Part shown: positions 1,714 through 63,206 of the stretch, one piece after another
How the letters are laid out: each line of letters begins with the position of its first letter
Position numbering within the stretch: the first letter of the stretch is position 1
Source of the DNA: Allolobophora icterica
Lineage: Eukaryota > Annelida > Clitellata > Crassiclitellata > Lumbricidae
Assembly: GCA_963556255.1 (NCBI GenBank)
Contig: OY744604.1
Coordinates: 79,415,697-79,479,696, forward strand
Direction: 5' to 3'
DNA length: 64,000 nucleotides
Position numbers and translations under genes: made by a program
The notes under the pieces: generated by a model
Database searches by the model: none
What the model was told of the DNA's origin: nothing
The model's input: the letters and a program-made list of their open reading frames with translations, nothing else

Positions 1714-1777
1714 ATGAACGCGTACGTTTATTTCTGCGTTCTTTGTGTGGTACATTTGGCAAGTGATGGTGCAAACC
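1714..1777 (+). CDS. Gene A exon 1: signal peptide
   Basis: The ATG opens a 21-residue hydrophobic leader (starts MNAYVYFC, core VLCVVHLA, ends DGAN) and the exon stops at a CC|GTAAGT donor in phase 1. The same 64-nt exon, with the same donor and phase, precedes genes B (15439) and C (42344) and the second copy A' (58208). That conservation is the reason for choosing this start. Confidence 0.85.
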
Positions 1778-3519
1778 GTAAGTCTTTTATACTTGCATAC
1801 AACTTGCGTGAATCCTGATACATTTAAAGCATGTTTATGAGTGATTTCTGGTTTGTAATTTCTACATATTATTTCAACATATGTAATCAAAAGAGGAGGT
1901 AGACTCTCTGGTGATGTTATGGACTTAAATAATGCGAGTAGAGGATAACGTTAAGTAGGCCTTGTAAAGCGGAATGCTATCTGCAAATACCTAACCTAAC
2001 CATAACACAATTAAGGTTGATCATTGTCACGTACTGTCTGTCTTTATGATTATCCTTGCACTAAGATGTACTAATATACAAAATTTAGACAAAACCGATG
2101 TAAACTCTGCCTGGTAGTTGTATGGCTACATGTTTTTGATAATTGTCATATTTGCCGCCTGCAAAGCCTCAGACGTCGTGGGTCCTCTTGTGTGCTCTGA
2201 CGTTCACGGATGGTTGCTGGCATTTGTGACTTTGCACAAGAAGGCAATTACATGTAGAAAACGGACTGCTCATATGGTCAACTGAAGATTGGCTGTGAAC
2301 AGAGGAAGTTGATTTTCTGGTGGTGCTAGGGACTTAAGTCGCATCTCGTAAAAACGGTTACAATCAATGATATTTACTTATCATTTCTTTAACCGTTATA
2401 ATTTATAATATCAAGATAAAATTTTATTATGATCACACGTTTTACGTACTAATGGACTAATCGTTTTTTTCTATGGCAATAATCGTTCTTGTTTTGAGAC
2501 ATGCGGCTTTACATGGGCTGATGTGCAAGAATGGAAGAACACAGTCACAAAATTAACCATTGCGCTCTAATTAGTACATAAAACGTAACACAATATAAAT
2601 ATATGGCCACACTCACTGTCTGCTACAGGCAGAGAATTTATACATCTGAACGTTTTAGCCGAACCGGTGAATGAAGTTTACAGAAATTAAGCCTACTTAA
2701 TGAATAAAATTAAGAGTCCATTATGTGCTATATCGCTAGCATTGGAAACAAACACACAAAACACTGGTAATACATCGGGTCACTGTGCTGTTAGTATGAA
2801 ATAGTAGGCCTAGCAATTGAGAAACGTTTGCTATTACTTGCAGCCAATTGTGGAATGGTAACAGTCAGATTATTCTTTCGAAAAGCTATTGTTGTATGTC
2901 TATCAGCAGTAGATAGGCTAGCATTTATTTGCAGCCAATTACATTGTCAGTTATTGCGTAGTTATTAAATGGCCATTTGCAATTAGTCTATCTAATAAGC
3001 TATACTATATTAATAAGTTCAACTTTAGAATGCTAGAGTATAGGTTTCGCATATCCCTGAAATGATGCATGACGTTTAGTTCAAATGCATACGCTCAACG
3101 TTTATCAAGGTCATCCGATGACCGTACACTGCTGCATATATCTTTTTTGGAATCCGCGAGATCACCTTTCTAACGCTTGGAGTTTCTGCGAAACCAAAGA
3201 ATAAACAAAGAAGTTCAAAGTCATCTGATGGTCGTATAAACTTTTTTGATTCCGCCACCACGAATTCCATTAATCACATGACTGCATTAGGCCTAGGCCT
3301 ATGTGTTTATTTGCACAGGCACTGTTGTTTTTTTCATCTCCTTTTAACTAATGAAAATTGATCTGTATACCTTAGTTGGAATCCATGTGTACTGATAGTT
3401 AAGTTCTTTAGTTAAGTGTTCTATCATTGTTTCTTTTACCTGCTGATCATATAACTTGATCGATGTTACCGTTAAAAGTATTGATTGTGCTGCCATTTAC
3501 TTGTATTACGATAAATGTT

Positions 3520-3650
3520 AACTAGGTGGCCCTGCTAAGCGGGATCAAGATCCCTTTTGGGTCTCCTCTTGTTGCCAAAGTTCAAACTTTTATGTTGTAT
3601 TTTCCTTGTACTTCAAATGACTTCAATAAAAGGATTGATTGATTGATTAA
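3520..3650 (+). mobile_element. LINE 3'-end fragment with (GATT)n tail
   Basis: A GC-richer segment (GGTGGCCCTGCTAAGCGGG, then a polypyrimidine stretch) ends in AATAAAAGGATT followed by GATT repeats. This is the shape of a 5'-truncated CR1/L2-type non-LTR insertion with a microsatellite tail. It is duplicated at about 60016-60146. No coding part remains. Confidence 0.5.
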
Positions 3651-4114
3651 ATAAACACGAAAACCCCAATTTTAACATTTGAAATTGCTGCGAAACCAAA
3701 TGTTAACCGCAATGGGTGAAGTGACCTTGAACTACAAAGTCATGCGAATGTCATATAATGGTCATTTTCTTAATCCGGCGAACCTATGGTAGCCTAAGAA
3801 TTTCTCTTCTGCCCACACATATACTGGGATATTAGTATCTGACAATGAATGTTGACCTTGAAAATGAAAGTCATCCGATTGTCCTGCAATGTTAGCAATG
3901 GCTTCGTTGACTTTTTCTACTCCGAGAACTCCATCATAGACACAAAAAACAAGTCTTTATCACTAGTAGTTCCTTAAAAATTCCGGAGGTAAATTTACCT
4001 CCAGCTTGCGGAACACGTCGTCTGAATAAATGCTGCAGTAAAAGAGCTGAAAGGAGCATATCGACAAAAATAGTTTAGACATCATGCTTCTGCTATATCA
4101 CTGAAAAGGCAAAG

Positions 4115-4160
4115 GTATATATATATATATATATATATATATATATATATATATATATAT
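4115..4160. repeat. (AT)n microsatellite
   Basis: An uninterrupted AT run directly before the Ig exon scrap of gene A. In the duplicated copy the run is shorter, and a LINE is inserted at its right edge (60641). Confidence 0.95.
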
Positions 4161-4307
4161 CACTTGACTTTTAGAAGGCAGCGTTGCAGCTGTTGAAGAG
4201 TCATACATCATCCCATGAACAAAACCACATAGCGGAAAGCCACATCTGTTGAAAACGAAAATATTATGACAGTTTATTCACTGATGTTAAATTATTTTGA
4301 TTTTTAG

Positions 4308-4682
4308 TTAGAAGAGTTGCAGCTTTTGAAGGATCAAACGCCATCGCTTCAGTTGGACGCAGAAGAGAACTATCATGCACGACACAGACATCGAATCCAC
4401 CTGAACAAGTCTCGTGGTATCGAACAACTAACGACGACAGAAGAAGGTGTCCTAATAAACCTTTTTTATTGGACAGCAGCTCATGGTTCTGCGATCGTCT
4501 GACCAACAATCGAATCGTTCAACCTGGTTTTAGACAAAGGTTCTCAGTACCTCCTTTGGGAAATGAAAACGAAAACGATTTGATAATAACAAGGGTTGAA
4601 CTCTCAGATGCTGGAACATACGCATGCTATGGTCACAACAGCAGCAAAATTCTTGTGCGGATAAACTTTACTGCTGAAGAAG
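4308..4682 (+). CDS. Gene A exon 2: V-like Ig domain 1
   Basis: A 375-nt phase 1-1 exon encoding one Ig domain. It shows the canonical first Cys (RELSC), core Trp (VSWYR), and the SDAGTYACYG motif with the second Cys. An additional Cys pair (RRCPN and WFCDR) may form a second disulfide. N-glycosylation sequons are visible (NSS, NFT). The acceptor GATTTTTAG at 4299-4307 is chosen because B and C have the equivalent site and it supplies the N-terminal strand (AAFEGS, AIASVG). A weaker alternative acceptor lies at 4351-4352. Confidence 0.85.
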
Positions 4683-61823: not shown

Positions 61824-61967
61824 TTGACTTTTAGAAGGCAGCGTTGCAGCTGTTGAAGAGTCATACATCATCCCATGAACAAAACCACATAGCGGAAAGC
61901 CACATCTGTTGAAAACGAAAATATTATGACAGTTTATTCACTGATGTTAAATTATTTTGATTTTTAG

Positions 61968-62342
61968 TTAGAAGAGTTGCAGCTTTTGAAGGATCAAACG
62001 CCATCGCTTCAGTTGGACGCAGAAGAGAACTATCATGCACGACACAGACATCGAATCCACCTGAACAAGTCTCGTGGTATCGAACAACTAACGACGACAG
62101 AAGAAGGTGTCCTAATAAACCTTTTTTATTGGACAGCAGCTCATGGTTCTGCGATCGTCTGACCAACAATCGAATCGTTCAACCTGGTTTTAGACAAAGG
62201 TTCTCAGTACCTCCTTTGGGAAATGAAAACGAAAACGATTTGATAATAACAAGGGTTGAACTCTCAGATGCTGGAACATACGCATGCTATGGTCACAACA
62301 GCAGCAAAATTCTTGTGCGGATAAACTTTACTGCTGAAGAAG
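61968..62342 (+). CDS. Gene A' exon 2: V-like Ig domain 1
   Basis: Same sequence as gene A exon 2, with the same acceptor, donor and phase. Confidence 0.85.
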
Positions 62343-62485
62343 GTTAGTTATTTCTATTCGGCGAAAGAAACAATGTTACTATGGTCGAAAATAATTACAG
62401 TTTGTATGTAGTCAAATAATTATAGCATTAATTAGCATAGCTATAACGATGACGATGATGATGACGATGGCTATGATTATTATTA

Positions 62486-62787
62486 TTACTACTACCACTA
62501 CTACTACTACTACTACTACTACTACTACTACTACTACTACTACTACTACTACTACTACTACTACTACTACTACTACTACTACTACTACTACTACTACTAC
62601 TACTGCTACTAATACTAATACTACTACTACTACTACTACCACTACTACTACTACTACTACTACTACTACTACTACTACTACTACTACCACTACTACTACT
62701 ACTACTACTACTACTAGATATTTAGTAGTAGTAGTAGTAGTAGTTGTTGTTGTTGTTGTTGTTGTTGTAGTAGTAGCAGCAGTAGTA
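62486..62787. repeat. Inverted triplet repeat (ACT)n/(AGT)n, second copy
   Basis: Counterpart of 4827-5150, with a changed number of ACT units. Non-coding. Confidence 0.95.
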
Positions 62788-62876
62788 GTTCTGCATTGAC
62801 TACTACTCTACACTACAATTGCTTATGCTATTTTCATTAATATTACTTTTATTATATTTGTGCATCTTTGCTTCAG

Positions 62877-63206
62877 TTGGAGGCAGGAAAGAACTGTCGT
62901 GCACCTCAGAGACATCGAACTTACCTAGAGAAGTTTCGTGGTATCGTACAACTAACGACGACATAAAAAGGTGTCCTTATAACCCTTTTAAATTGGATAG
63001 CAGCTCATGGTTCTGCGATCGTCTGACCAACAAACGAACTGTTCAGCCTGACTTCGGAGAAATATTCTCAATACCTCCCTTGGCAACTAAAAACGAAAAC
63101 GGTTTGATAATAACAAGGGTTGAACTCTCAGATGCAGGAATATATGCATGTTACGGTCATAACAGCAGCAAGATTCTTGTACGGATAAACCTTACTGCTG
63201 AACAAG
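62877..63206 (+). CDS. Gene A' exon 3: V-like Ig domain 2
   Basis: Same as gene A exon 3. Later exons lie beyond the window. Confidence 0.85.

Follow-up and report, generated by a model that had tools for sequence, protein, structure and literature searches.

The 64,000-nucleotide window analysed here (contig C3, positions 79415697–79479696, + strand, of a 1,117,693,669-base genome in 328 contigs) contains a one-orientation array of genes for type I receptors with immunoglobulin (Ig) domains. This array is probably part of a rapidly rebuilt receptor complex for contact recognition, immune or self/non-self, whose tails would signal through SH2 proteins of mixed sign. As judged from the sequence, this reading is carried by the exons and domains, the recurring splice sites, the motif content of the tails, the duplications and a junction between two receptor types. 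The region read around the window covers 304 kb (C3:79195700–79499600), and positions outside the window are given as rel, relative to its first base.

Organization of the receptor array

Six loci, here named A to F, lie on the + strand from the signal-peptide exon of A at 1714 to the end of the second V exon of F at 63206, in agreement with the first-pass annotation of this DNA. The array spans the whole 304 kb in this single orientation, with every homology-scan match on the + strand. The scan, which covers open frames only, yields 13 near-complete type-1 V exons and three fragments, together with repeated type-2 and type-3 modules. In gene models built from homology, hydropathy and splice sites, a signal peptide, a single transmembrane (TM) segment and a predicted cytoplasmic tail lie in one spliced frame; splice sites recur in most copies, and the signal-peptide, TM and tail exons are in phase.

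Three architectures occur side by side. Type 1 (A, B, D and F) encodes a signal peptide, one or two V domains, a stalk/TM segment and a tail; type 2 (C and E) encodes a signal peptide, a V and a putative C2 domain, a TM segment and a tail related to that of type 1; and type 3 sets a single V3 domain between the signal peptide and a TM segment with a four-tyrosine tail. DNA self-alignment separates two alternating ectodomain families, A/B/D/F and C/E, between which the DNA aligns at one tail exon only (35751–36019 vs 21650–21918, 71%). The view that the six loci share one exon set needs correction: the ectodomains form two families, and A, E and F are incomplete within the window. Likewise, the count of six stands, with the addition of a seventh, previously unnamed piece, X (9240–11992), a type-3 piece with its own TM segment and four-tyrosine tail.

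Complete, stop-free models are obtained for the type-1 loci B, D, F and G3 and for two type-3 genes. Specifically, all exon joins of B and D are in phase 1; F, whose intact TM and tail exons lie just past the window end (64798–65628), gives 437 amino acids; G3, located upstream, is a one-V type-1 gene of 320 amino acids; and the two type-3 genes, also upstream, run from signal peptide through V3 and TM to tail over 329 and 326 amino acids. Type-2 locus C gives 458 residues (signal peptide, V, C2, stalk, TM, cytoplasmic segment and tail) once the long terminal repeat (LTR) element inserted in it is omitted. A random-insertion origin of the C-terminal tail of D was rejected, because other copies share that tail.

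In the Pfam search that the first-pass annotation had proposed, all six V exons sent from the window (five type-1, one type-2) exceed the V-set cut-off of 26 bits, with scores of 30.0–42.4 bits and E values of 6.2e-07 to 8.7e-11. Nine of nine V exons sent overall pass, including three in a second scan, and the V3 exons of the two type-3 genes score 27.2 and 31.2 bits. The proposal of V-set type I Ig receptors laid out in tandem is thus supported. The putative C2 domain of C finds no Pfam Ig match. The Cys-Trp-Cys core of the type-2 C2 candidate is invariant in eight aligned sequences, and of the four sent, one distant relative exceeds the Pfam 'ig' cut-off (25.6 vs 21.8). At five of the eight distant V-set loci fetched, the V exon is followed, in the same strand, by sequence encoding a relative of the type-2 C2 domain. 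Two extra cysteines (in RRCPN and FCDRL; alignment columns C43 and C57) are conserved in the V domains of type 1 and in both database relatives, and perhaps form a family-specific second disulfide. A V-set exon of a fourth kind (33.9 bits) lies inside the array at rel -139278 to -138784.

The A–X junction

Locus A is identical to F up to 7296, a position within the stalk/TM exon at which the TM and tail of A are lost. Over eight stretches, with simple repeats and indels excluded, the two loci differ at 6 of 6,348 positions (99.9% identity), and their V exons are identical. From 7291 onward, A aligns with the intron lying directly after the V3 exon of a type-3 gene, at 85.6% over 104 bp and then at 80% over 927 bp past a minisatellite; that V3 exon ends at rel -88803, and the match starts 22 bp later, at rel -88781. 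The broken stalk exon of A has, up to its stop, no donor of the forms searched. The A V2 exon joins the X TM exon in phase and gives an open receptor model of 463 amino acids, and the last intron of X is in phase 0. Because identity with F stops at 7296, a type-3 intron follows and the V2–X join is in phase, A–X apparently combines a type-1 head with a type-3 tail, an ectodomain swap that would be expressed through predicted A-to-X splicing. The A–X intron contains a CAAGAC minisatellite block (7408–8337), with relatives at rel -154 kb and rel -161 kb, which yields a long DQDQDLEPQ open frame.

Donor F and the chimeric twin A–X, with identical V exons, are about 56 kb apart in one genome. Since the two carry the same head on different tails, the swap process is directly testable. 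The pair bears on a question not yet answered in the evolution of paired receptors and allorecognition, namely how recognition receptors of opposite sign acquire a common binding specificity. A bolder and rather doubtful possibility is that A–X is a very recent receptor in which the type-1 head drives a four-ITIM tail (ITIM, immunoreceptor tyrosine-based inhibitory motif) and that its near-identical twin F keeps the original mixed tail; the two would make a natural pair for one ligand, either activating and inhibitory or tuned differently. They would then belong to a working allorecognition or immune complex with three interleaved signalling grammars, in which recombination has moved specificity between signs, in an animal group from which no such complex has been described.

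Tyrosine motifs of the tails

Strict ITIMs were defined as [SIVL]xYxx[ILV], and chance was estimated from 20,000 residue shuffles per tail. Four occur in the X tail (a count reached in 0 of 20,000 shuffles), two each in B (p 0.017) and D (p 0.021), and one, at chance level, in C (p 0.28), which carries four YxN motifs instead (p 5e-5). The first-pass statement that every preserved tail bears ITIM-type motifs thus needs qualification. Each of the four window tails contains four YxxPhi motifs against 0.81–1.12 expected (p 0.002–0.011). Across copies, strict ITIMs number one or two in type 1, none or one in type 2, and four, two and one in type 3, and YxN counts in type-2 tails are 4, 4 and 4, with 2 in a short one. 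The tyrosines of the X tail are spaced by 21, 28 and 26 residues. When all tyrosines are considered, 3 of 5 in B, 4 of 6 in C and 4 of 4 in X are invariant across the aligned copies, the two other C tyrosines being absent only from the short tail.

In vertebrate CD28-family work, YxNx is a GRB2/GADS site and the ITIM stands for inhibition, as set out in the part of PMC11599192 that treats these motifs. An all-inhibitory array was set aside, because type-2 tails are rich in YxN and type-1 tails are mixed. Of the inhibitory character first assigned to the array, SH2-type tyrosine motifs in the tails are supported; a uniform sign is not supported, given the YxN sites, the 14-residue tyrosine pairs described below and strict ITIMs that are not kept across copies. 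Neighbouring genes differ in tail class, an F-type head is joined to another tail in A–X, and the signalling sign of each tail is predicted from its motifs. A reading as hemi-immunoreceptor tyrosine-based activation motifs was likewise rejected, because the GYxxL core is found in none of 13 tails.

Duplication and constraint among paralogues

Recent duplication, seen in the A/F identity, and rapid birth and death, both proposed earlier, are supported. A second copy of the D–E segment (D'E') lies upstream of A and is 98.2–99.8% identical to DE along most of the segment, with 89% in 40069–41025.

Among paralogues the V exon is the best-conserved part (B/D 89.8% vs 80–85% for introns). The ratio of nonsynonymous to synonymous divergence (dN/dS) is 0.34–0.69 in nine of ten type-1 V exon pairs and 1.15 in the other; dN is below dS at p=0.0006, 0.012 and 0.022 in three type-1 pairs, at 0.07 and 1 in two others, and at 0.04 for C–E, the pairs being non-independent. 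By region of the V1 domain, assigned by hand without a structure over ten distinct exons (identical F and D' copies dropped), dN/dS is 0.42–0.66 in loop-like segments, 0.19–0.39 in framework-like segments and 0.58 in the G strand, with all seven regions below 1. Diversifying selection on the V exons was set aside, since nine of the ten pairs and every one of the seven regions have a dN/dS below 1.

Proposed mechanism and alternative explanations

In the favoured model, the outer V domains, whether single, in tandem or combined with C2, would bind a surface or soluble ligand. Engagement would lead Src-type kinases to phosphorylate the tail tyrosines, and SH2 proteins would be recruited to them: SHP-type phosphatases to the ITIM-like sites of type 3, with inhibition as the outcome, and Grb2-type adaptors to the YxN sites of type 2, type-1 tails offering mixed sites. 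The array would be remodelled as segments duplicate in tandem, transposons insert and genes of different types recombine, and the A–X junction would have placed a type-1 ectodomain before a type-3 signalling tail.

Several observations weigh against this model. The expected excess of amino-acid change in the Ig exons is not found in the paralogue comparison within one genome, where the V exon is best conserved and dN/dS mostly below 1, so the diversity anticipated by the first-pass annotation is not borne out at this level. Type-1 stalks and tails show no constraint (dN vs dS, B–D tail p=0.87, stalk p=0.50), and the B/D stalk ratio above 1 is non-significant, with only 5.5 synonymous changes. 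Pooled tyrosines are invariant at 11 of 15 positions vs 187 of 358 other residues, which is suggestive and not significant (p 0.089; per family p 0.32, 0.32 and 0.17). The more striking 3/3, 4/4 and 4/4 invariant tyrosine columns, from six type-1, four type-2 (one short) and three type-3 tails, with D' (identical to D) and a damaged fragment at rel -212912 excluded, came from columns chosen beforehand for having tyrosine in every copy or in every copy except one. In addition, several tyrosines miss the strict ITIM consensus in other copies (type-3 MKYLTI, ISYLAM and FIYEEV). Activating partners of vertebrate paired receptors have a charge in mid-TM; none is seen by eye in B, D, C, X or the other copies read, and X and F each have one Arg near the inner TM end.

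The tails and domains could also be read in terms of adhesion. Ig-superfamily proteins of the adhesion or axon-guidance kind would use their tail tyrosines as YxxPhi sorting signals for AP-2/clathrin, and the array would serve tissue adhesion; the YxxPhi enrichment of all four window tails, not all of which match the strict ITIM, agrees with this, as do contactins and Roundabout, the PDB proteins that the type-1 V profile matches best in sequence. Sorting, however, does not require YxN arrays or ITIM-like spacings of 21–28 residues, the V domains pass V-set and not I-set alone, and three ectodomain architectures with fast turnover and a domain swap suit recognition receptors better, which leaves adhesion unlikely. 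A distinctly unlikely variant keeps recognition and turns the sign around: the YxxL-x10-YxxL pair that type-1 and type-2 tails carry would be a Syk docking site resembling the immunoreceptor tyrosine-based activation motif (ITAM), and only type 3 would inhibit. In all ten type-1 and type-2 tails examined, the second YxxPhi tyrosine follows the first at a distance of 14 residues, a spacing acceptable under relaxed ITAM definitions, and type-2 tails also carry YxN sites; yet the 10 residues between motifs exceed the classical 6–8, and nine of the ten tails contain a strict ITIM-type site.

Two further explanations concern the state of the DNA itself. Near-identity of A and F (99.9%), and of D'E' and DE, would be expected if an assembler had joined two haplotypes or a repeated contig in place of a tandem duplication. 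The insertions nevertheless differ, a long interspersed nuclear element (LINE) being present in F only and the Gmr1-like LTR element of E facing a 1.9-kb insert in E', and after 7296 A runs into a type-3 intron whereas F runs into an intact TM and tail, so an assembly origin appears quite improbable. The array might otherwise be mostly a graveyard, with few of its genes expressed and the remainder left over from an older array that transposons have dispersed. Damage of this kind is visible in C, interrupted by an LTR element, in the truncated E, in D with its dead V exon, in A, which has lost its TM, and in G4, whose V exon is frameshifted, as seen by eye, and has no donor; TM/tail relics at rel -213 kb and the three short V fragments point the same way. 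Against it stand the complete genes B, D, F and G3 and the two of type 3, the 13 near-complete type-1 V exons in open frames, 10 distinct ones of which were re-read, and dN below dS in three type-1 V pairs and in C–E, albeit among non-independent pairs; a graveyard is accordingly held to be highly improbable. A contact-recognition complex with tails of mixed sign is the explanation that we favour.

Features of the window and mobile elements

Coordinates of the exons, relics and inserted elements are collected in Table 1.

Table 1. Exons, relics and mobile elements located in the window (window coordinates)
Feature	Position	Strand	Remarks
A signal-peptide exon (type 1)	1714..1777	+	homologues at B, D, F and others
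A V1 exon	4308..4682	+	V-set 38 bits; AG/GT borders, phase 1
A V2 exon	5240..5569	+	V-set 30 bits; acceptor within ancestral coding sequence
A broken stalk/TM exon	7161..7296	+	homology to F 100% over 7200-7296, ends there
Type-3-derived intron (from just after V3 exon)	7291..9239	+	CAAGAC minisatellite insertion; 7291-7394 and 8403-9298 match rel -88781..-88679 and -88635..-87745
X stalk/TM exon (type 3)	9240..9413	+	paralogues at rel -87803, -44230, 67866
X tail exon 1	10218..10394	+	LLYEEV
X tail exon 2	11220..11332	+	IKYSTI
X tail exon 3 and stop	11834..11992	+	ISYLAL, STYAAI, KPLPVPPR
B signal-peptide exon (type 1)	15439..15502	+	
B V1 exon	19039..19401	+	V-set 42.4 bits
B V2 exon	19705..20037	+	V-set 30.9 bits
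B stalk/TM exon	21155..21370	+	hydropathy 2.67 over 19 residues
B tail exon	21662..21963	+	YCQL, SVYSEL, YEEV, SAYENI
C signal-peptide exon (type 2)	23268..23307	+	
C V exon	24921..25241	+	V-set 36.5 bits
C C2 exon, 5' part, LTR-split	26090..26128	+	uninterrupted in three paralogues
Ty3/gypsy LTR element in C2 exon of C	26129..32478	+	LTR parts identical (132+53 bp), flanked by ATCAC; Pfam reverse transcriptase (RT)/RNaseH/integrase
Tc5/pogo-like DNA transposon nested in 3' LTR of the C element	about 30697-32423		Tc5-like transposase match below cut-off
C C2 exon, 3' part	32484..32816	+	
C short stalk exon	33359..33421	+	
C stalk/TM exon	34301..34441	+	hydropathy 3.19
C juxtamembrane cytoplasmic exon	35081..35137	+	
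C tail exon	35763..36145	+	YWEL, YSAL, YVNI, YKNT, YGNT, YENI
Relic of type-3 last exon, between C and D	39731..39829	+	80% to 11952-12058
D signal-peptide exon (type 1)	42344..42407	+	
D degenerate V exon (pseudo-exon)	44033..44251	+	
D V exon	44512..44886	+	GC donor; V-set 33.8 bits
D stalk/TM exon	46442..46651	+	
D tail exon	46929..47266	+	YCEL, SVYSEL, YEDI, SNYLEI
E signal-peptide exon (type 2)	48944..48983	+	
Gmr1-like LTR element in intron of E	49890..56022	+	two identical LTRs of 489 bp, flanked by AACAT; integrase zinc domain precedes RT
E truncated V exon with stop	56227..56473	+	breaks off near 56473, within the V exon
F signal-peptide exon (type 1)	58208..58271	+	homology
LINE reverse-transcriptase insertion in first intron of F	60636..61792	+	absent from A; Pfam RVT_1
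F V1 exon	61968..62342	+	identical to A V1
F V2 exon	62877..63206	+	identical to A V2

The Ty3/gypsy element in C reads as young from its identical LTR parts and target-site duplication ATCAC. E' carries a different insert of 1.9 kb (rel -2395 to -506) at TTAA, a few bases from the LTR site of E, and the inserts of E and E' are independent insertions at almost the same spot. The LINE fragment in F is presumably of the CR1/L2 kind. Searches for tRNA genes and Rfam families give no match. TAGGCCTA occurs 27 times in the window vs 0.5 expected; words of this type occur in deuterostome genomes, which is a lead only. The Gmr1-like element of E gives no integrase core match in the two frames scanned, and the Gmr1 order, integrase before RT, is known also from an annelid and is not deuterostome-only, according to the relevant section of PMC8220671. 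The deuterostome origin suggested by the first-pass annotation is therefore not established, since the TAGGCCTA count is no more than a lead and the Gmr1-like order occurs in an annelid too; from its genes, the DNA would be of animal origin.

V-set clusters, relatives and structure models

Genome-wide, 1,017 candidate V-set exons were found at first look and 150 of them scored. Every one of the 150 passes the cut-off, and 125 have another within 200 kb, where uniform placement gives a mean of 7.4 (200 draws). Dense clusters also occur elsewhere, on contigs C3, C4, C6, C9 and C13; for example, a stretch of 0.63 Mb on C4 contains 21 of the scored 150, and one of 1.7 Mb on C9 likewise 21. This number and clustering make the genome a good subject for the study of invertebrate Ig-receptor immunity.

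Full-length B has no relative at E<=0.001 among 6,921 candidates; exon searches recover five relatives in short contigs at 62–68%, one of which, P0005, looks rearranged. Viral contigs contain no match to an RT frame or to the type-1 V alignment. Similarity to vertebrate receptors goes no further than the Ig fold, as in PDB matches such as the polymeric Ig receptor (4e-08). In AlphaFold2, the type-1 V domain is modelled at a mean confidence (pLDDT) of 37 and the type-2 V domain at a moderate 63; the type-2 model is closest, at a TM-score of about 0.5, to V domains such as those of antibodies, CAR and BTN3A1, and CD8 and PD-1 come further down the list.

Comparison with known recognition systems

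The closest known systems whose working the array may resemble are Botryllus FF/FcoR and Hydractinia Alr, and Ig-receptor arrays of this kind are already known in other animals. Literature searches returned no description of this locus within the papers that came up. Like the array, the FF/FcoR genes of the Botryllus schlosseri fuhc locus form a large multigene family of type I Ig proteins in polymorphic clusters, with V-type and C2-type domains; their tails bear ITIM, hemITAM or core YxxI/L/V motifs, and related genes lie as neighbouring pairs (PMC12065747, in its account of these genes). The same account gives FcoR a V-sushi-C2-C2 ectodomain in proteins of 520–610 amino acids, unlike the V-V, V-C2 and single-V forms here; the V-sushi-C2-C2 order does not appear in the models made, with no search aimed at sushi. 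The 13 tails compared here also lack the hemITAM core, and the array is known from sequence. Botryllus Fuhc-tm is similarly a type I protein of a recognition locus, with three Ig domains, although it has a short intracellular tail and, in the portion of PMC12065747 devoted to it, is a fuhc-locus gene not presented as an array. Hydractinia Alr resembles the array as a cluster of Ig-superfamily genes with 41 members and ITIM/ITAM-type motifs in candidate genes (relevant parts of PMC11999971 and PMC12065747). Alr function, however, rests on genetics, and the likeness drawn here is by description, not sequence.

Among vertebrates, KIR/LILR, SIRP and fish NITR are clustered V or V-C2 receptors that have exchanged ectodomains and tails in evolution. 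Unlike these paired receptors, no activating partner with a mid-TM charge and no ITAM adaptor was seen among the copies read. The likeness lies in V or V-C2 type I receptors whose tails would be of opposite sign, ITIM vs YxN, as in the CD28/PD-1 family treated in the corresponding part of PMC11599192. The mixture of architectures in the array bears in this way on the evolution of self/non-self receptors.

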